From: Megasphaera sp.
GTDB taxonomy: Bacteria; Bacillota; Negativicutes; Veillonellales; Megasphaeraceae
Reading direction: 5' to 3'
Assembly (NCBI GenBank): GCA_022486585.1
Contig: JAKVKI010000001.1
Location: forward strand, 62,001 to 126,000
DNA length: 64,000 nucleotides
Each line of letters starts with the position of its first letter. Position 1 is the first letter of the stretch. The translations under genes were made by a program, and so were the position numbers. A model generated the notes under the pieces. It was not told where the DNA came from. It ran no database searches and was given only the letters and a program-made list of their open reading frames with translations. This document shows positions 35,906-47,094 of this stretch, piece after piece.

Positions 35906-36325
35906 CTATTGCATCTTGGCAATTAAATCATCGGTTACATCAATGCCGCCTTGAGGAACTGCTTCTTTATAAACGACGATACCTACATTCTTATCTTTGG
36001 CAATATCGCCTAATTTGCTTTGAATGTCTGATAAAAATTGCCGCTGCATACTGGCTCCGTAAATATTAAGTTCTTGTTGAGCCTGTTGTTGCTTTTTCTG
36101 AAAATCTTCTGCCGACATAGACTGCTGTGCATCCTGAAGTTCTTTTTCAACTTCTTTTTGTTTATCTTCTGTTTTCTGCTTATAGGTTTGGACTGCCGGT
36201 GCTTCTTTTTGCACACGAGCCATATCGACAACACCTACTTTATCTTCACCACCGCAGCCGCTGAGCATACCTGCCATAATCGTCATTGATGCCACAACTG
36301 CCAGTCGTTTCCACATTTTTCTCAT
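35906..36325 (-). CDS. OmpH/Skp-like lipoprotein
   Basis: A 139-residue predicted lipoprotein: the signal peptide ends in the lipobox LSGC (Cys at residue 24). The mature part starts with VGVVDMARVQKEAP, the usual OmpH/Skp first strand. A charged helical arm (about residues 40-100, rich in Gln and Lys) follows, then the closing strands ending in GGIDVTDDLIAKMQ. Skp proteins hold outer-membrane proteins in the periplasm. Here the chaperone would be tethered to a membrane. First-named of three paralogues (see 36343-37281 and 37294-37779). Confidence 0.85.
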   Translation of the reverse strand: MRKMWKRLAVVASMTIMAGMLSGCGGEDKVGVVDMARVQKEAPAVQTYKQKTEDKQKEVEKELQDAQQSMSAEDFQKKQQQAQQELNIYGASMQRQFLSDIQSKLGDIAKDKNVGIVVYKEAVPQGGIDVTDDLIAKMQ

Positions 36326-37799: not shown

Positions 37800-39080
37800 T
37801 TATAAATATCCTATGATCCGAAGCCAGTGATCATGGTCGGATACGATATACTCCAAACCGATATATTCATGCAAACGATACGTCAGTCCTACTTCATCAT
37901 CCCGATGGGTGAAATCCCTGTCATAACGGAATTGCCAACGCTTGCTAAGGGTTTGGCGAAACCAAAGATGATGACTGTTATCTGCCGTTTCGTACTGATA
38001 CCCGAGCTGGCTGCCTTTACCCCATTGATAAAAATATCCCGGCATGACATTCCACTCTACCGTTCCCGGCGTAAATTCCAATTCACTATATATTTCCTGA
38101 TGATTACCAATTTTACGCCCTACATGGCCCCGTATGACTGTATCACTATCATGCCTGCCGTCATTATTACGACCGACATCGATATATGCACCAGCACGAA
38201 GATCATAAAAATCAGTTTGTGACAATACGTGGATATCCGTGTCTTCACCAATAGTGAGAACTGGCGTTACACGAAGTTTATACTTTTTAATGACCCATTG
38301 TTTCCCCAGCGTCTCTTGTATATCCGCCTGGATAGCCTGTTCATGACGGCGCACAAAAGACACAGGAAGTCCCTGCAGACCGGCGTAGTGCTGCTCCAAA
38401 TTTTTGCGTGTGCTGAGGAAGATGATCTTAGGCAAATTTTCTGCTTCAATACTGACATTGGCATTACGCACAACTGGCAATTTAGGCAGCATATATACAT
38501 GAACGGATGCTGCTGTTCCCGGTATAATAACGATATGCGGATAGAATTCAGGGAGCATCGTCTCTAATTCAGTTTCCATAACTGATTTGACAGCTCCGTT
38601 TGCCCAATCCAACGCATCGATAGGAAGACCGATGAGCAGGTTCTCTACCAGCGTCTGCGCTCCTGTTAAATCGCGATTAGCCAGATCCTGTCCCATCGGT
38701 GGCAACGAACCGTAATCAATAGTAACTTGTACCGAATGAATGGTCTCACCCCAAGGCCGTATTTCTACGACCATCCCTGTATCCGGGCCTGGTGTGATTG
38801 TCAGCCGTTCTACTGTATAGCCAATGAGAACACGGTTAACAATATCATTGACAGTCCGTTCATAATCACCCATATGCTGACGAATATCATCATCATCATG
38901 TTGTAAAAGAACGTGATTACCAACGGTTTGGATACTGGCAGCAATCCGTTTTTGCACTAACGGAGGTATGGCCTCCTGTAACGATGTGACCTGTACAGAC
39001 ACATGTTCTACCGATGCTGCCAGTGCACTTCCCAAGCTGATACACGTCAAAAATATTGTCGCTAAACAAAACCGTATCAA
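37800..39080 (-). CDS. Exported beta-rich envelope protein of unknown function, beside bamA
   Basis: I do not recognise a named family. The 426-residue product has a clear signal peptide (IFLTCISLGSALAA, cleavage near residue 22). Residues about 23-290 look like alternating strand/helix domains with HVSVQVTSLQEAIPPLVQKRI. The last about 130 residues alternate polar and aromatic residues as in outer-membrane beta strands (for example SELEFTPGTVEWNVMPGYFYQWGKGSQLGYQYE). It ends in GYL rather than the usual terminal Phe or Trp. Its place between bamA and the OmpH-like genes suggests a role in outer-membrane assembly; that is inference. Confidence 0.7.
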   Translation of the reverse strand: MIRFCLATIFLTCISLGSALAASVEHVSVQVTSLQEAIPPLVQKRIAASIQTVGNHVLLQHDDDDIRQHMGDYERTVNDIVNRVLIGYTVERLTITPGPDTGMVVEIRPWGETIHSVQVTIDYGSLPPMGQDLANRDLTGAQTLVENLLIGLPIDALDWANGAVKSVMETELETMLPEFYPHIVIIPGTAASVHVYMLPKLPVVRNANVSIEAENLPKIIFLSTRKNLEQHYAGLQGLPVSFVRRHEQAIQADIQETLGKQWVIKKYKLRVTPVLTIGEDTDIHVLSQTDFYDLRAGAYIDVGRNNDGRHDSDTVIRGHVGRKIGNHQEIYSELEFTPGTVEWNVMPGYFYQWGKGSQLGYQYETADNSHHLWFRQTLSKRWQFRYDRDFTHRDDEVGLTYRLHEYIGLEYIVSDHDHWLRIIGYL

Positions 39081-39107: not shown

Positions 39108-41390
39108 TTAGAACTTGCCGCCAAAACTAAAGTGGAATTTACCACCATTGTCACCTACACCATAATCAAGGCGAATTGGCCCGATTGGCGTCGTAATGCG
39201 GAAGCCTAAGCCGCCAGAATAATGGAATTGGTTATTATCTTTGTACCAAGGAACATTTTCAGTTCCGCCCCAAGCATTACCGCCATCGACGAAGAAGACC
39301 CCTTGGACTTTTTTAGCAATAGGATAACGATATTCAATAGTGCCTGCATACATCTTATTGCCACGGAATTCATCATCTTCATAACCACGAAGATTATCGG
39401 CACCACCTAAGGTAAACAAATCGTTGTACGGCATATCACCAGTAGCAATACCACCCATGAGGCGGACAGCAATAACATGTTTACGACCAACTTTATAATA
39501 CAAGCGGTTTTCAGCAACGAATTTGAAATAATCAAAATCACCGCCTAAGCCATGGCCAGCCCATGTCCCGGTAAAGGAAAGACGTTTGCCTTTCGTCGGA
39601 TCATACACATTATCACGATTATCAAAAACATGAGACCATACTACGCTGTCTGTCCGACCAAAGTTATTATCTAAATAGTGACGATATTTATCTGGTAACG
39701 AAAAATCATCTTGCCATTCTTTATAATTATAACCACTATTATAATCAGTGTATTTAGTCTTTTTCGTTTCTAAGGTAACGTAATCGCTGACATATTCACT
39801 GCGGACACGACCATAGGTAACATTAAAGCCTGTCGTCCGTTTGTCATAATCGGCAACAGAATTACCTTTTTCATTATAATCTTCGTATTCCGATTCACGA
39901 TCGAAAATACTGAACCCAATAGAATCGCCATGATCATTCATCCACGGATGGGTATAGGAGAAAATATAGTTCTTATTAGAATTCGAATTGCCGCCGAATT
40001 CCCAACTGATGCTGGCTTTATCACCAGTACCACGGAGATTCGTTTCACTCAGACCCAGAATACCAACAAGGCCATCTGAGTCAGAATAGCCGGCACCAAT
40101 CGTAACAGAACCGGTCTTCTGTTCCACCACATCAATTTCTACGATGACATCTTGGCGGTTTAACTGCCCTGGTAAAAGACGAACGTTGACGTCTTCAAAA
40201 TAACCTGTATTATACACACGCTGTATACTGCGGCTAGCCAGGTCTTTATTAAATACATCGCCCTTTTTAAAGCGTAATTCACGAAGAATAACTTTATTTT
40301 TTGTTTTCGTATTGCCACGGAGGCGAATATCTTCAACGTGCGCTTCAGAAATACCGATATGAAGAATGCCCTGGTCATCAATGCTGACATCAGAAACACG
40401 GCTCAACATATACCCGGCATTGCCATACTCCGTATTGATATTGGATACATCTTTGCTGATAAGGGTTGTATTGACTACTGAACCCGGTGTAATAGTAATA
40501 AGTTTCCGTAAGTCTTCTGTCTTGATTGATTCATTGCCCTGAATATCGACATCATTGACAATCGGATTCATTTGAACGGTATAGTTCAGTTTCACCCCTT
40601 CAGGAACGTCAGTAAACGTCGGTTTAATCGTAGAGAACAAACCAGCTGCACCAATGATATTCATATCATGGCGAATGTAATCCGCATTGATGGCATCGCC
40701 GACACGCATCGCCAGCTGCGGTAATAATTGTGCTTCGATCTGCTGATCCGGTACAGGACTAATATTGACAGACGTCGTTATTTTATTGACATACGGCGCG
40801 ATTTCAGCATCAGTCACTGCATTGCCATACGGCAAGGTCGCTTCAACACCCGTTGACAATACAGCCATCGGATAATTCGGTACAGCTGTATTGATTTGAA
40901 CATCACCAAGACCATTGACATACTCTACGGCAGTCCCTGGCAAGTTATTCTTTCTAGCAGCTTCTGCTGTCGTCTGTACGACAGACTCATGTTTCTGTGC
41001 TTCCTGTTTAGCCGCAATTTCATCAACTGTAGCTGCGGCTTCCTGATGGACTTCAGTAGCACTCTTATCGCCCGTTGCAATAGCTTGCAATTCTTGATCC
41101 GTTTCATATCCAGTCAAGCCGGATTTAGCACTTTCCATCGTCGATGCTGTAGTATCATCAGGAGCCGATGTAATAACGGCATTGACTTTCATCTTCTTTG
41201 TATCTTCATTGCTATCTGCCGATGCTGCTGTTGCTTTTACCGTTTCCCCATTATTAGCGGGATCATAGCCTGTAACCGTTTGTGCCGCAACAAGATCTGT
41301 TGTGGTTGTGTCATCATTTGCCCATACAGGGCATGTCATCATCGCACTGGTTATCATCAGGACGAGAAGTTTCTTATTCCGAGTTTCCAT
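39108..41390 (-). CDS. bamA: Outer membrane protein assembly factor BamA
   Basis: Central outer-membrane beta-barrel insertase. The 760-residue protein has a signal peptide (to about residue 24). An acidic Ala/Thr-rich low-complexity stretch follows (about 25-155), then about three POTRA domains (about 190-430; NPIVNDVDIQGNESI and AHVEDIRLRGNTKTKNKVILREL are recognisable POTRA starts). The C-terminal barrel (about 430-760) has SETNLRGTGDK, the YRYPIAKKVQGVFFVDGGNAW region, and a terminal Phe. Fewer POTRAs than the five in E. coli. The ATG follows GGAGG. Confidence 0.95.
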   Translation of the reverse strand: METRNKKLLVLMITSAMMTCPVWANDDTTTTDLVAAQTVTGYDPANNGETVKATAASADSNEDTKKMKVNAVITSAPDDTTASTMESAKSGLTGYETDQELQAIATGDKSATEVHQEAAATVDEIAAKQEAQKHESVVQTTAEAARKNNLPGTAVEYVNGLGDVQINTAVPNYPMAVLSTGVEATLPYGNAVTDAEIAPYVNKITTSVNISPVPDQQIEAQLLPQLAMRVGDAINADYIRHDMNIIGAAGLFSTIKPTFTDVPEGVKLNYTVQMNPIVNDVDIQGNESIKTEDLRKLITITPGSVVNTTLISKDVSNINTEYGNAGYMLSRVSDVSIDDQGILHIGISEAHVEDIRLRGNTKTKNKVILRELRFKKGDVFNKDLASRSIQRVYNTGYFEDVNVRLLPGQLNRQDVIVEIDVVEQKTGSVTIGAGYSDSDGLVGILGLSETNLRGTGDKASISWEFGGNSNSNKNYIFSYTHPWMNDHGDSIGFSIFDRESEYEDYNEKGNSVADYDKRTTGFNVTYGRVRSEYVSDYVTLETKKTKYTDYNSGYNYKEWQDDFSLPDKYRHYLDNNFGRTDSVVWSHVFDNRDNVYDPTKGKRLSFTGTWAGHGLGGDFDYFKFVAENRLYYKVGRKHVIAVRLMGGIATGDMPYNDLFTLGGADNLRGYEDDEFRGNKMYAGTIEYRYPIAKKVQGVFFVDGGNAWGGTENVPWYKDNNQFHYSGGLGFRITTPIGPIRLDYGVGDNGGKFHFSFGGKF

Positions 41391-41413: not shown

Positions 41414-42013
41414 TCATTTATTATGTATTGCTCCACCGCGCAGGCTATGTCGTGCATCCTGCACGGCGTCCTGCATCTGCTGGTCCGATAAGACCTGCGC
41501 CGATACCGGTGCTGTATATTGTTGAACAGGTACTGCTTCTTGTGCTGTCTGCCGTTGAGGCGGTACTGTTTCAGCCATTTGTTGAGATGTTGCTGATTCT
41601 GTCACACTAACTTCAGATTGATCTGGCTCCCTCGTACTTGTCGTATCTGCAGGAGCGCTATACTGTTCTTGCCTTGTTTCATCTGGTTCTGCTTGCTGCA
41701 CTTCTTCTGTCCGCACAGCACCCGGAATCACTTCCGAAGGGACTTCAGCCGTAGCAGTCCCTGCTGCCGGTCCTGGCAGACGAACAGCCAGCCACAAAAC
41801 CGCTGCCAAAACAGCGATTGTTGCCGCACCCAGCCGGAGGAGACGATGACCAGCGGCATGATTTTTACGTAAATTTTTCATTTCCGCTTCAGCCAGCATG
41901 AGATTCAGTTCTCCCTGAATATCCGATTTACTGTCATAAGACTGTTCTGCTTTTTCCAGCCATCGCTTTACAGATCGAACATGGGCGGCCATATTGGCGT
42001 CTGATTTCTCCAT
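41414..42013 (-). CDS. Single-pass membrane protein of unknown function between sigma factor and bamA
   Basis: A 199-residue protein I cannot place in a family. Residues 1-55 are charged and helical (likely cytoplasmic). Residues about 58-78 form one transmembrane helix (LLRLGAATIAVLAAVLWLAVRL). The rest is Pro/Thr/Glu/Gln-rich and probably disordered outside the inner membrane, ending with DQQMQDAVQDARHSLRGG. This topology resembles membrane anti-sigma factors, and the gene follows a sigma factor gene, but no anti-sigma domain is recognised. The ATG follows AGGAGG. A SigB-like promoter candidate lies at 42042-42068. Confidence 0.75.
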   Translation of the reverse strand: MEKSDANMAAHVRSVKRWLEKAEQSYDSKSDIQGELNLMLAEAEMKNLRKNHAAGHRLLRLGAATIAVLAAVLWLAVRLPGPAAGTATAEVPSEVIPGAVRTEEVQQAEPDETRQEQYSAPADTTSTREPDQSEVSVTESATSQQMAETVPPQRQTAQEAVPVQQYTAPVSAQVLSDQQMQDAVQDARHSLRGGAIHNK

Positions 42014-42041
42014 AGTCTGCCTCCTTTCAGGATATATATAC

Positions 42042-42068
42042 TATCCCAAAAGAGATTTCGATTTTAAC
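42042..42068 (-). promoter_or_regulatory. Candidate alternative-sigma promoter upstream of 42013 gene and bamA
   Basis: On the minus strand GTTAAA (42063-42068), 15 bases, and GGGATA (42042-42047). This resembles the SigB-type consensus GTTTAA-N13-15-GGGTAT. It would start transcription about 20 bases before the start codon. The sigma factor encoded just upstream belongs to that broad group. A weaker sigma-A reading is also possible. Confidence 0.35.
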
Positions 42069-42154
42069 CAGGTAAAAAAAAGCAAAATCAATACGTATGA
42101 CAGCTGATGCTCCTTATTATTCGTGTTTTCAAACATATACGCCTCTTTTTCTTA

Positions 42155-42793
42155 TCATTTATCTTTACTGTCATGAATAAAACGGCTCAACATGCCTCGC
42201 ACCCGTCGTATGCCCCTTTTCTGCAAGCGATAGACATACGGCAGGCTTACATCCATATCGCGGGCAATATGTTTTTGCTGCTTATCCTGCAAATAAACGC
42301 CTTCAACGACGATTTGTTCTTTCTCTGGCAGGCGGGACAAAATACCAGACACATGTTCAAAAAGGATGCGCCGCCCCGTTCTATCAGCTAAATCTTCACT
42401 ATCATCAGGCAAGTTATCACGCAGCGTCATTCCATGTTCATCTGGTTCATCAAGAGACAACGCCGTTCGACGCCCTTCCTTATTGAGATAATCAACAATT
42501 TCACCTCGTATACGATGAACAGCATATAAAGGGAATGCCACATTTCGCTTATAATCAAACCGTTCAACAGCCTCAATAAGCCCTAGTGTACCCTCTTGAA
42601 CTGCATCCGCTAAGAGATCCGGACGGATATGCCAACGCATGGTCTCTTTAAAAACCAATGGCTGGTACCGCTCAATAAGACGGCTGCGGCTGGCCATATC
42701 TCCATTATCTTTATACGATTGCCACAACTTACGCTCTTCTTCCGGCGTCAACAGCGTTATTTTATTGAGCTCTTTCAAATATGCCTCTAACAT
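42155..42793 (-). CDS. RNA polymerase sigma factor, sigma-70 family (SigB/SigF/WhiG-like group)
   Basis: A 212-residue alternative sigma factor. A short region 1.2-like start (LKELNKITLLTPEEERKLW) is followed by region 2 (PLVFKETMRWHI, DLLADAVQEGTLGLIEAVERFDYKRNVAFPLYAVHRIRGEI). Region 3 is LDEPDEHGMTLRDNL, and region 4 is LPEKEQIVVEGVYLQDKQQKHIARDMDVSLPYVYRLQKRGIRRVR, with its helix-turn-helix. It is not an ECF factor, because region 3 is present. It lies 11 bases after tamB and before a membrane protein and bamA. Its targets cannot be read from sequence, but position suggests envelope genes. Confidence 0.9.
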   Translation of the reverse strand: MLEAYLKELNKITLLTPEEERKLWQSYKDNGDMASRSRLIERYQPLVFKETMRWHIRPDLLADAVQEGTLGLIEAVERFDYKRNVAFPLYAVHRIRGEIVDYLNKEGRRTALSLDEPDEHGMTLRDNLPDDSEDLADRTGRRILFEHVSGILSRLPEKEQIVVEGVYLQDKQQKHIARDMDVSLPYVYRLQKRGIRRVRGMLSRFIHDSKDK

Positions 42794-42804
42794 ATCATTC
42801 TCCC

Positions 42805-45800
42805 TTAGAAAAAGCTGTACTTATAGGATCCGCCAATAAATGAAGAGGATTCCGATTTCCAGGCATTAATATTAAACCGACTGCCTAACGAATATTGTAC
42901 ACCAAAACGATTATCGTCATGGTTAAGGCCAAAAGCTGCTGTTACCATAAAATCGTTAAAAAGATACTTGCCCATTTCAATGTTATAGTAATTACGACTG
43001 ATATCTGTATTCTTATCATTAAAATTCAAGGAGCCAGTCGTAACGGTCAACATATCAAGAGATAATGCTTTCTCTAGTTCATGGGTAATCCCCAAACTGT
43101 TCAAGGTCATACGGATACCCGTTCCGATAAGCGAATTCACATCTGCACTGTTAAGAGAACTTTCTTGTTTTCCGCCACTCCGCAGGGTAATCAGTGATAT
43201 GATCTGCTGCTTTGTCAATGGCGGATCCGAACGCAACATCATGTCCATATTGTCCGCCGGTCCTCGCAACGTAAGCAAAACCATATACTGCCCCACACGG
43301 GCATGGCCTTCTACATCAAGGACTGGCAAGAATGAATCATGAATCGAAAAATCAGCTTTCGCTTTCGTAAGCATGAAATTCGTATCTAAATAATGGATCG
43401 TACCTCGCGGTGCTTCAAAACGCCCTGAAGGTCTGGGATGTTCTACTGTTCCTTTAAAATTCACAGACCCATTGATGAGCATATCATATAAGGCTGAATT
43501 ATACAAGCGCACTTTGTCTCCCAACGACACCGTAAAGTCTAATTCCAGTGGCATAGAAGCCGTCCCAGACGTGAAAACCAGCGGCACATCAATCGTCGTA
43601 TTGGAAATTTCGACAATGCCACTCAGTTTAGGATAAGACGATCCCGGTGCCAATTCTATATGACCGGTTAAGGGCCCGCTAAAATAATTGCAGTCCACTT
43701 TTAAATGATCTATATCCATAACAGCATCATACTTAGTCAGCTGCCATCCCTGCCAGGATGCTGTTCCCTGAAGAGATATGGTTCCTGGATTTTTAGCACC
43801 TTTTTTATCCATAGTCCCGCTGAGTGCAGCCGTCATATTCGTTCCCTTGAAATCCATGTTACCGGTTATGTGTGACAACGGATACGTTATATCTCTGAAT
43901 TGAATGGATCCGTCATTAACCGCTACTGTACCCTTAAGCTGTGGTTCTTGTAATGTACCGCTCACATTGATATCACCTTCAATGCCCCCTTGGGCTGTTT
44001 TAACCAAGGGTGTCAGGAAGGTAAGAATATCCAGCCCGGCATGATCCAATTTTACGTTCACATTCATTGATTCAGCTGTACGACCACCTTTTAAAGCACT
44101 GACCGGAATAGTCCCTGTTGCACTGGCTTTATACGGTTCTTTAGAAACATACGCCTGATTCAGATGGATGATGCCATCTCGAATATTAAACAAAACAGAG
44201 GCATTAGTAATGGCCACACCATTTATGGTGCCCCCATTCAATTGTGCTGACACATCGGCATCCGGATTTTCACCATTACCACTCAATTGAGCGGCAAAAT
44301 CGATATTCGTATCTACATCAATGCCATCCATCCCCAGTATATCAAGTAAAATACGCGATGGAAATTGACGAGCTGCTACCTGTATATCTGCTGTTCCATG
44401 TAATGCATACGTTCCTTGCGCTGCTAAAATGGTATCCCCCGCAGTCAATGACAATTGATTGATCTTAAAAATGCCATCAGCAAACTGTACATCAATATTT
44501 GTAGGATCAGCAGCATGTCCATCAAGATAGGCCTGCGTCAGTTTACCTGTAAAAGCTGCTTTAGGATTCTTGCCTGTTCCATCAACGGAAATATCCCCAT
44601 CAAGACGGCCTTCTACTTTTTGCAACGGTACGCCTGCCAAATTTAACAAATCAGCCAAGTCTCCATTATGGACGGAGCCGCGAGCTACAATCCGGTCATT
44701 ATTGGTGTTATACATGATATTCGCATCATATGCACCACCTTGCTGCGCAAAATGAAGGTCTGACAAGCGAATAATGCCGTCATAATACGCAAAATCACCG
44801 TGCACATCCGTTAACGCCATATTATTAACGACAAGCTTTTCTGCTGTGAGCTCTCCTGAAGCCATTGGATTTTTGACCGTGCCACTAACGTGTGCTTTAA
44901 GGCTAACCATGCCACTACGAGGCAATGATTCTTGGGTCACCATAATACGCGATATATCCAATTGATTGCCTTCGATCGTCAAATCCAACGCATCTCCAAT
45001 AGAACCATATACATTGATAGATGCATCATAAGCAGAAATAGTCCCATTATGGATATAGAGAATTCCGTTACGCACTTCATAGGCAGCACTGATGTTTTTA
45101 TATAAATAGCCACTGTAAGAGCCTTCGGACAAGCGGAATGACCCTGTGGCTGACGGATTATCTAAGGTCCCGCCAATATTGATCGTATTATCAGCCCAGC
45201 CCGTAAGTCCCATATCGCCTTTACCCAAGACAGGCAGTATCCGTTCGATACGCATGTGTGCCGTATCGACACGAAGAGTAACAGCGCGACTATCCAAATC
45301 AGCTGAACCAGTGACCGTATGACTACCATCAACGTACCGCCAGTATATAGCAGGAATAACGATATGCTGTCCCTGCCCTTGTAAAGACCCATCGAGGCTG
45401 TCAAAAGGCATTCCTTTGATGGTCCCCGATTTCGCATTGAACGCCACATCCCATTGCGATCCTGTGCCCCAAATATGACCGGCTGCACTGACAGTCCCGC
45501 TCATAGGCACAGAGGCCCAAGCTGAAAAGGTATCCAGCGGAATTTGATTTGCAGTAAAGGTAATATTCGGTGTATTAGCAGCAACATCAAAAGTACCGCT
45601 AACTTGTACCGAACCACCGCCTATAGCAGCTGTTGCCTCGCTAATAGCTGCTATACCATCCTTATACGCTAGATGCGCTGACACCTGATCTGCTTCTATA
45701 CCATTATAAGATAAGCTCGTTGCCGATACCTGACCCTGGGCTTGTATATTTTTACTATCATGGCTATTACCAAACGCAGTCACCTCTGCCGATACCATAC

Positions 45801-47094
45801 CAGTTACCGATACGGGAATCTGCGGGATTGCTTCCAAAGAAATATCACTAGCTTGAACTGACGCTGTAAAATCTCCGCTGTCTATACCATAAGTACCTTT
45901 TCCTGTTACATGTCCGCCTGCCACATCAGCTGCTACTTTATCGAGCTGAATCAATTGATGCTCATATGTCACATCAGCTGTACCATTAGAAACAGTAAGG
46001 CCGTCATAGTCTGCTGAAGCTACCGTTACAGTACCGCTGGCAGATAAATTCTCAATAGAACCCCAAACGGAACCAGTCCAGCCGACAGTGCCTGTTATAG
46101 GGAGCTGTAAGGAAAATGCACTCAGATCAACAGAAGGGGCATCTAGTTTTAAATCAAAGACAGGTGCATCACCATTTATTTTAATGATCCCGTCCGTACG
46201 AATTTTCTGTCCGTTCACCAATCCTTCTACATGACTCAGACGGACTTCATCGGTCGTTAAATCAGCATGTCCCTTGACACCGCTTACATTATACCCTTTG
46301 ACTGTCCCTGTTCCGTCACGCACATCGGCTTGTCCAGACAGGAAAAATCCCTTGTGGCTTTGGGAAACGTGGGCCTTGATGTTTTCTATAACGCCGCCAG
46401 AAAGAGCAATATCAGCAGTTGACGGAATAAACGGTACAGCATAGCGAATATCGACAGCGTCACCACGAAGAGTCATATCATATTCCCGCATAGAACGATA
46501 TCGGCCTGATACGGTTAATTTCTTCTGATCCACTTCTACTTCAGCGTCAATAGTCATTACCGGATACGCCGATAAATCAAGCGCTCCATTACATGCTTCT
46601 CCTGTAAGTTGTGTTCCATCTTTAAAAGAAGCAAAAATCGTACCGTCATGCAAGCGTATAACGCCCCTATAACCAGCATCAGCACCAGTTCCACTCTGCT
46701 TAATAAGCGTAGCAACATTCCACGTATTATCAGCCTGCTGTGCGGCATGAAGGACCGGTCGTTCTACATCGATTGTTTCCAGCGCTGCCATGGCTTCGCC
46801 GCCCTGAAGGATGGCCAATGCATTCCACGGATTGATTTGTACAGACAGCGAATCCCCTGAAAGGACTGGAGCATGATGAATATCTGTAATAACCGGTTTT
46901 GTAAGCGTGACACGGCCTGACAGTGATATATTCATATCTTCAAAAGAAAATTCACCGTTAAGCTTGCTGCTCATGGTTGTCTTTACTGTATCTGTAAGGC
47001 TTTGCAAAATCGCCGGTTTTTCTATCCAAAAAGCTGCAAATGCCGATAGAAGAAATAAGACGATGACGCAAAGAGCCATCCATTTTTTTTTCAC
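42805..47094 (-). CDS. tamB: Translocation and assembly module protein TamB
   Basis: A very long (1429 residues) AsmA-like protein that spans the periplasm and is implicated in outer-membrane protein assembly and phospholipid movement. The N-terminus has one membrane anchor (WMALCVIVLFLLSAFAAFWI). The body is made of repetitive beta strands, as expected for a lipid-carrying groove. The C-terminal DUF490/TamB domain is recognisable (GTIHYLDTNFMLTKAKADFS, RVGQYMVLLTLRGPADNM, SDPPLTKQQIISLITL), and the last residue is Phe. The GTG start at 47094 follows AGGAG. No TamA gene is nearby; BamA may be its partner. Confidence 0.95.
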   Translation of the reverse strand: MKKKWMALCVIVLFLLSAFAAFWIEKPAILQSLTDTVKTTMSSKLNGEFSFEDMNISLSGRVTLTKPVITDIHHAPVLSGDSLSVQINPWNALAILQGGEAMAALETIDVERPVLHAAQQADNTWNVATLIKQSGTGADAGYRGVIRLHDGTIFASFKDGTQLTGEACNGALDLSAYPVMTIDAEVEVDQKKLTVSGRYRSMREYDMTLRGDAVDIRYAVPFIPSTADIALSGGVIENIKAHVSQSHKGFFLSGQADVRDGTGTVKGYNVSGVKGHADLTTDEVRLSHVEGLVNGQKIRTDGIIKINGDAPVFDLKLDAPSVDLSAFSLQLPITGTVGWTGSVWGSIENLSASGTVTVASADYDGLTVSNGTADVTYEHQLIQLDKVAADVAGGHVTGKGTYGIDSGDFTASVQASDISLEAIPQIPVSVTGMVSAEVTAFGNSHDSKNIQAQGQVSATSLSYNGIEADQVSAHLAYKDGIAAISEATAAIGGGSVQVSGTFDVAANTPNITFTANQIPLDTFSAWASVPMSGTVSAAGHIWGTGSQWDVAFNAKSGTIKGMPFDSLDGSLQGQGQHIVIPAIYWRYVDGSHTVTGSADLDSRAVTLRVDTAHMRIERILPVLGKGDMGLTGWADNTINIGGTLDNPSATGSFRLSEGSYSGYLYKNISAAYEVRNGILYIHNGTISAYDASINVYGSIGDALDLTIEGNQLDISRIMVTQESLPRSGMVSLKAHVSGTVKNPMASGELTAEKLVVNNMALTDVHGDFAYYDGIIRLSDLHFAQQGGAYDANIMYNTNNDRIVARGSVHNGDLADLLNLAGVPLQKVEGRLDGDISVDGTGKNPKAAFTGKLTQAYLDGHAADPTNIDVQFADGIFKINQLSLTAGDTILAAQGTYALHGTADIQVAARQFPSRILLDILGMDGIDVDTNIDFAAQLSGNGENPDADVSAQLNGGTINGVAITNASVLFNIRDGIIHLNQAYVSKEPYKASATGTIPVSALKGGRTAESMNVNVKLDHAGLDILTFLTPLVKTAQGGIEGDINVSGTLQEPQLKGTVAVNDGSIQFRDITYPLSHITGNMDFKGTNMTAALSGTMDKKGAKNPGTISLQGTASWQGWQLTKYDAVMDIDHLKVDCNYFSGPLTGHIELAPGSSYPKLSGIVEISNTTIDVPLVFTSGTASMPLELDFTVSLGDKVRLYNSALYDMLINGSVNFKGTVEHPRPSGRFEAPRGTIHYLDTNFMLTKAKADFSIHDSFLPVLDVEGHARVGQYMVLLTLRGPADNMDMMLRSDPPLTKQQIISLITLRSGGKQESSLNSADVNSLIGTGIRMTLNSLGITHELEKALSLDMLTVTTGSLNFNDKNTDISRNYYNIEMGKYLFNDFMVTAAFGLNHDDNRFGVQYSLGSRFNINAWKSESSSFIGGSYKYSFF

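Follow-up and report, generated by a model that had tools for sequence, protein, structure and literature searches.

Two neighboring genes between tamB and bamA, for a sigma factor and a single-pass membrane protein, probably encode a switch for outer-membrane assembly in Negativicutes

In the window, i.e. the complete stretch of 64,000 nucleotides of Megasphaera sp. that was analyzed, a sigma factor (SIG) and a bitopic membrane protein (TM) are encoded between tamB and bamA; together they are probably a switch, not described before, by which the assembly of outer-membrane proteins is tuned. The best explanation of the observations as a whole is that SIG and TM constitute an ancestral regulatory module for outer-membrane assembly, in which SIG reads a promoter-like element upstream of TM (P2); to this explanation we assign a probability of about 60%. 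The evidence comprises the linkage and joint loss of the two genes, the domain architecture of both proteins, structure models, and the distribution of P2.

Results

Gene order and conservation of the locus

The preliminary description had placed a sigma factor gene and a membrane protein gene between tamB and bamA, and the coordinates, the strand and the order all proved to be correct (Table 1). A small ORF in the SIG-TM gap (MFENTNNKEH...), which has an RBS-like start and one hydrophobic stretch, was rejected as a chance ORF, as it is not conserved in other loci.

Table 1. Features of the tamB-SIG-TM-bamA locus, with positions in the window. The order on the minus strand is tamB, SIG, TM, bamA, with gaps of 11, 141 and 23 bp.
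Feature	Position	Strand	Evidence or remark
tamB	42805-47094	minus	Pfam TamB 5e-38; 11 bp upstream of SIG
SIG, 212-aa sigma-70-family factor (regions 1.2, 2, short linker, 4)	42155-42793	minus	Pfam matches
SIG-TM intergenic region, 141 bp	42014-42154	minus	
P2, promoter-like element before TM-bamA, here GTTAAAA-N15-GGGATAGTATAT	42036-42068	minus	family-specific variant of a class-wide element
TM, 199-aa bitopic inner-membrane protein, candidate membrane-bound sigma regulator	41414-42013	minus	orthologues, N-in topology
TM cytoplasmic domain, about residues 2-61	41831-42010	minus	conserved across phyla; predicted helical hairpin in SIG-fused model
TM single transmembrane helix, about residues 62-81	41771-41830	minus	hydropathy of 94 members; AlphaFold2 helix
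TM conserved C-terminal periplasmic tip LSDQQMQDAVQDARHSLRG	41417-41488	minus	predicted helix ending the disordered tail
bamA (Omp85)	39108-41390	minus	NCBIfam OM_YaeT 3.5e-89; 23 bp downstream of TM

The arrangement tamB-SIG-TM-bamA is not due to chance, as it recurs across the class and beyond. The same order was found at 29 of 30 loci of close relatives from within the order and at 38 of 40 loci from many other families of the class. SIG was present in 205 and TM in 209 of 250 class genomes. Two of the four genomes with TM only are 74-75% complete, and the other two, G114 and G202, were rejected as TM-only cases, because the matches are weak and no TM gene precedes bamA. Conserved co-occurrence had been suggested as a check of the pairing, and the pair passed it: SIG was never found without TM, neither in the 250 class genomes nor in 61 genomes of the phylum. 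At one locus (L008, 2260-2894), SIG is seemingly split over two frames, possibly by a sequencing error in a draft of about 170 contigs.

SIG and TM were lost jointly in several lineages that retained tamB and bamA. Genomes without either gene include those of a Veillonella-like genus (g5) and of the neighboring genus g12, some of the Dialister-like genomes, and a small number of others; in these genomes bamA directly follows tamB wherever tamB is in view. The same direct succession has been reported for V. parvula (Vpar_0526/0527; PMC5491611). The block is broken apart in genus g11, and the break lies precisely between SIG and TM: tamB-SIG is found at one place and P2-TM-bamA at another. The surrounding cluster mla-tolC-tamB-bamA-skp-lpx of Negativicutes and Halanaerobiales is old and conserved (Antunes 2016, PMC5007114).

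Several additional genes were observed. A 426-aa, signal-peptide-like protein without a Pfam match is encoded directly after bamA (37800-39080, minus strand), and genes of similar size follow bamA at L174, L232 and L234, two of which lie outside Negativicutes; it is possibly a conserved, unannotated member of the outer-membrane cluster. One of three OmpH/Skp-like genes in a row (35906-36325, minus strand) encodes a protein with an N-terminus that ends in a lipobox-like LSGC. A second Omp85-family gene is present in the same genome, outside the window (G000:C24:26227-27126).

Distribution beyond Negativicutes

In the 61-genome sample of the phylum, five genomes encode SIG and the same five encode TM; all five are Omp85-positive, and three are non-Negativicutes. 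No SIG or TM was counted in the 47 Omp85-negative genomes of the sample, where a weak, tail-only match to TM in G275 (5.5e-5) was excluded from the count. A scan of named genomes returned 80 loci, and SIG was followed by TM in all 80. These include loci of the uncultured Bacillota DTU084, UBA5473, UBA5435 and UBA5301, of Sysuimicrobiota (ANGP1, CSP1-3), of an Armatimonadetes bin, and of UBP15. In a tree of SIG, the sequences from Negativicutes formed one group (100/97), apart from the non-Negativicutes. This topology fits old vertical descent, within the limits that bins and their naming set to such an inference.

SIG is a sigma-70-family protein with regions 1.2, 2 and 4

SIG is a genuine sigma-70-family protein. 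In Pfam it matched Sigma70_r2 (3.8e-16), r4 (3.6e-08) and r1.2 (6.9e-06), and regions 2 and 4, which define the family, were matched in SIG and in 23 of 23 members. Region 1.2 was matched in 13 of the 23, including the protein of the window. The preliminary description had listed regions 2, 3 and 4; regions 2 and 4 were recovered, whereas Sigma70_r3 was matched neither in SIG nor in any of 23 orthologues, and the regions are thus to be read as 1.2, 2, a short linker, and 4. The designation as non-ECF was borne out, as region 1.2 and the r2-r4 linker of about 42 residues place SIG outside group 4, whose members have only regions 2 and 4. SIG also falls outside group 3 (the SigB/SigF/FliA type), because region 3 was found in 0 of 23 members. 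The NCBIfam models with the highest scores were SigF, SigB/F/G and WhiG. However, SIG stayed below the cut-offs of SigB, SigF, SigG, WhiG, FliA and RpoH, and the best subfamily or equivalog scores of about 60-90 bits were each well under the respective threshold. Most genomes of the window's genus encode three or four region-2 proteins, namely one of about 420-450 aa, which we take to be SigA, SIG itself, and one of about 220-265 aa.

TM combines a conserved cytoplasmic domain with a conserved distal tip

No Pfam family was matched by any of 27 TM members, and no NCBIfam family covers TM. In agreement with the preliminary description, the Pfam searches with these 27 members revealed no known anti-sigma domain. 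In a profile search against the PDB, the matches of TM were confined to the membrane segment and the tail.

The hydrophobic segment was located in 94 non-redundant members, with a median start at residue 63; after it comes a tail of about 84 residues that is rich in Pro and Ala. In 92 of the 94, the 20 residues before the segment are more positive than the 20 after it, indicating an N-in orientation. TM thus has the topology of membrane-bound anti-sigma factors, i.e. it is single-pass, N-in, and encoded together with a sigma factor. The cytoplasmic domain has a pairwise identity of 45% and contains a core motif, WL..AE..........GELNLMLAEAE, that is conserved across phyla. The identity of the tail proper is 26%, compared to 24% after shuffling, whereas the last 20-24 residues form a conserved tip (37% versus 16% after shuffling). 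The consensus of the tip is LSxxEMQxLvxxAgxsLRG in Negativicutes, and the pattern SxxELIxLvxxAexsLRG was found in several other phyla. Of the topology proposed earlier, a helical cytoplasmic N-terminus, one membrane helix and a disordered tail, the overall layout was retained, but the tail has to be amended by a conserved helical tip. That the tip is conserved implies that it has a partner, located either in the periplasm or at the outer membrane.

Structure models of SIG and TM

The complex was modelled with AlphaFold2 as a read-through fusion of SIG, the translated gap and TM (459 residues, 43 in-frame rows), which contains a nonsense linker. Outside of its own linker, SIG was mostly modelled with a pLDDT of 85-98, and the best 50 Foldseek matches of the fusion model were all sigma factors. 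Residues 1-27 and 31-78 of TM formed a helical hairpin, with a pLDDT of 95-97 at residues 11-50. In contrast, TM alone, modelled with the corresponding 43 rows, was predicted as one straight helix from residue 2 to 78, and the pLDDT of residues 21-40 was 77/85 for the straight helix versus 97/96 for the hairpin in the fusion. The change from straight helix to hairpin sits at the conserved GELNLMLAEAE motif. The tip was predicted to be helical in both cases (residues 177-193 in TM alone, 437-457 in the fusion).

These models suggest that the cytoplasmic domain of TM folds on SIG, a suggestion that derives from pLDDT values of a fusion with a nonsense linker. Structure prediction of the complex, which had been proposed as a check, thus yielded the TM hairpin in the presence of SIG, while the interface between the two proteins is not judged by pLDDT. 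Coevolution scores from mean-field DCA (131 effective sequences) were rejected as contact evidence: columns of the tail were among the high inter-protein scores, so that the signal reflects phylogeny rather than contact.

A promoter-like element precedes TM-bamA

The SIG-TM gap is mostly 120-200 bp long, with a median of 156 bp at 148 loci. The heptamer GANTRTA was found 25-60 nt upstream of the TM start in 72 of 92 non-redundant loci, compared to a mean of 3.4 and a maximum of 9 in dinucleotide shuffles; in two control regions, upstream of SIG and at the end of TM, it was found in 3/92 and 1/92, respectively. A G[AT][CT]CA block is position-locked about 20-24 nt upstream of it; upon alignment on GANTRTA, GT occurred at -24/-23 in 27 and CA at -21 in 34 of the 72 loci. 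An initial, strict bipartite pattern had recovered only 2 of 14 loci of the window's family. An unsupervised search for two blocks recovered the -10 part and a weak -35 part, and the latter became clear once the sequences were aligned by the -10 part. In P2 the final T of TATAAT is usually missing, and a conserved GA precedes the TATA.

Lineage-specific versions of the element were also found. The window's family has the variant GTTAAAA-N15-GGGATAGTATA, and the window's own genus has GGATAyTATA. In Sporomusa-like genomes, a 30-nt version occurs once per genome (8/8; control 0). The -35 part in Sporomusa-like gaps (L096, L087, L083 and others) contains a palindrome, CCAGAnTCTGG, that belongs to this 30-nt version, is conserved between families and may be an operator for another regulator. 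A genome-wide search with the P2 pattern in the window's genus yielded no excess over the reversed pattern, which leaves a wider SIG regulon unsupported. In many non-Negativicutes the motif is absent and the gap is often only 5-40 bp long; P2 thus appears to be specific for Negativicutes, and in those other genomes SIG and TM seem to be simply co-transcribed.

In Veillonellaceae with SIG and TM, there are two elements whose spacing is fixed, namely P1 (TGnTATAAT) at -86 and P2 (GTTCA...CGANTRT) at -28. The Veillonella-like genomes that lack SIG have kept P1, a SigA-type element (TATGCTATAATGATAAAGAT), and nearly all of them lack P2. Of nine gaps from SIG-less genomes that were read, one contains a single GAATATA at the right distance, and P2 is missing in nearly all SIG-less lineages examined. 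Because of this co-loss, P2 is taken to be a SIG-dependent promoter, and judged from these sequence patterns SIG probably reads it, although another sigma factor could be the reader. Together, the fixed place between tamB and bamA and the conserved promoter-like element before TM-bamA support the proposed link of the pair to the envelope.

Discussion

Proposed mechanism and alternatives

In the switch that we propose, SIG would be co-transcribed behind tamB and would direct RNA polymerase to P2, thereby driving TM and bamA and probably also the skp and lpx genes behind bamA. TM, made from P2, would bind SIG by its cytoplasmic helical domain and hold it at the membrane, and this restraint would constitute a negative feedback. 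The long disordered tail would allow the helical tip to reach the outer membrane or the BAM/TAM machinery, and a changed occupancy of the tip or a cleavage of the tail, possibly by proteolysis, would free SIG. Judged from the models, binding of SIG by TM is the likeliest of these steps and has a good probability. Inhibition of SIG by TM is somewhat less secure, though still probable, and for the entry of the signal through the tip we see an even chance.

TM might also have a different role, namely that of an inner-membrane accessory of BAM or TAM that docks with its tip on BamA, TamB or Skp, while SIG merely transcribes TM together with bamA. TM always adjoins bamA and stays with it when the block splits, as in g11, its tip is conserved, and it has no anti-sigma homology. 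Nevertheless, we regard this role as improbable, as conservation is higher in the cytoplasmic domain (45%) than in the tip (37%), TM is lost when SIG is lost although BamA remains, and the cytoplasmic domain changes its fold in the model when SIG is present.

The linkage, the co-loss and the models would fit an activator as well as an inhibitor, and TM might be a positive factor that brings SIG or RNA polymerase to the membrane or on which SIG activity depends. However, single-pass membrane proteins with a gene next to that of a sigma factor are commonly anti-sigma factors, and in view of this precedent a positive role is quite unlikely. It is very unlikely that operon conservation alone keeps SIG and TM together, as genes of an old envelope cluster that have nothing to do with each other, and that P2 is a SigA promoter. 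The conservation of the whole cluster (PMC5007114) and the resemblance of P2 to a weak TATA-type -10 box would agree with this explanation, but the joint loss of SIG and TM occurred several times without a loss of tamB or bamA, P2 deviates from TATAAT usually in its final T and in the conserved GA, and it is P2 that is missing in nearly all SIG-less lineages, whereas the SigA-type element remains in the Veillonella-like ones.

Comparison with known systems

We know of no account of the means by which outer-membrane assembly is sensed and regulated in diderm Firmicutes and other Terrabacteria. The SIG-TM pair provides a candidate regulator with a promoter, a partner domain and a sensor tip, and Veillonella represents a natural knock-out lineage for it. 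The pair appears not to have been described previously in the open literature searched. The word "sigma" is absent from the main text of the paper on the outer-membrane cluster of Negativicutes and Halanaerobiales (Antunes 2016, PMC5007114), and a 2026 review on BAM describes sigma-E control in the E. coli-type system and, in Terrabacteria, BamA without accessory lipoproteins (PMC13067283).

By its best-scoring models (SigF, SigB/F/G, WhiG), SIG resembles the group of WhiG, FliA, SigB and SigF, and RsiG, the partner of WhiG, is a helical anti-sigma factor, as is predicted for the cytoplasmic part of TM. However, SIG lies far below every equivalog cut-off, and TM is membrane-bound, whereas RsiG is soluble and uses c-di-GMP (PMC8325347). 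A sigma factor without the region-3 domain next to a single-pass membrane protein is also reminiscent of SigI/RsgI. In Clostridium and Bacillus, SigI, which lacks region 3 and has another C-terminal domain than region 4, is paired with the single-pass anti-sigma factor RsgI, in which a short cytoplasmic domain is combined with a sensor part on the outside. In contrast to RsgI, TM has no Pfam match to the RsgI N-terminal domain, and the hosts are diderm.

A sigma factor with a membrane-bound anti-sigma factor that is coupled to BAM is a known kind of system, exemplified by RpoE (sigma-E)/RseA of Escherichia coli, but SIG-TM differs from it in protein families, sigma architecture, location and hosts. 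Common to both are a sigma factor and a bitopic inner-membrane partner that are encoded together, and the N-in orientation of the partner. A tie to the expression of BamA and Skp is proposed for SIG-TM as well: the RpoE-type control of bamA and chaperone genes may have its counterpart in the conserved P2 before TM-bamA, which is missing in nearly all SIG-less lineages examined. Unlike RpoE, SIG does not belong to the ECF factors, as its linker is longer and region 1.2 is present, TM lacks the RseA domain, the pair lies inside the bam locus, and the proposed target of SIG is the adjacent operon, with no wider regulon detected. The earlier view of an RpoE/RseA equivalent built from a different sigma class is thus a fair working hypothesis, while homology to RpoE/RseA was not found. 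More tentatively, SIG-TM may be an ancient BAM-surveillance system of diderm Terrabacteria that predates the Negativicutes, in which the tip monitors BamA, TamB or unfolded outer-membrane proteins across the periplasm via a disordered tether and controls a sigma factor devoted mainly to the adjacent bamA operon, i.e. an independent invention of the sigma-E logic. If this is true, the use of a membrane-tethered sigma factor for envelope surveillance has evolved two times or more, with components that are not related to each other.
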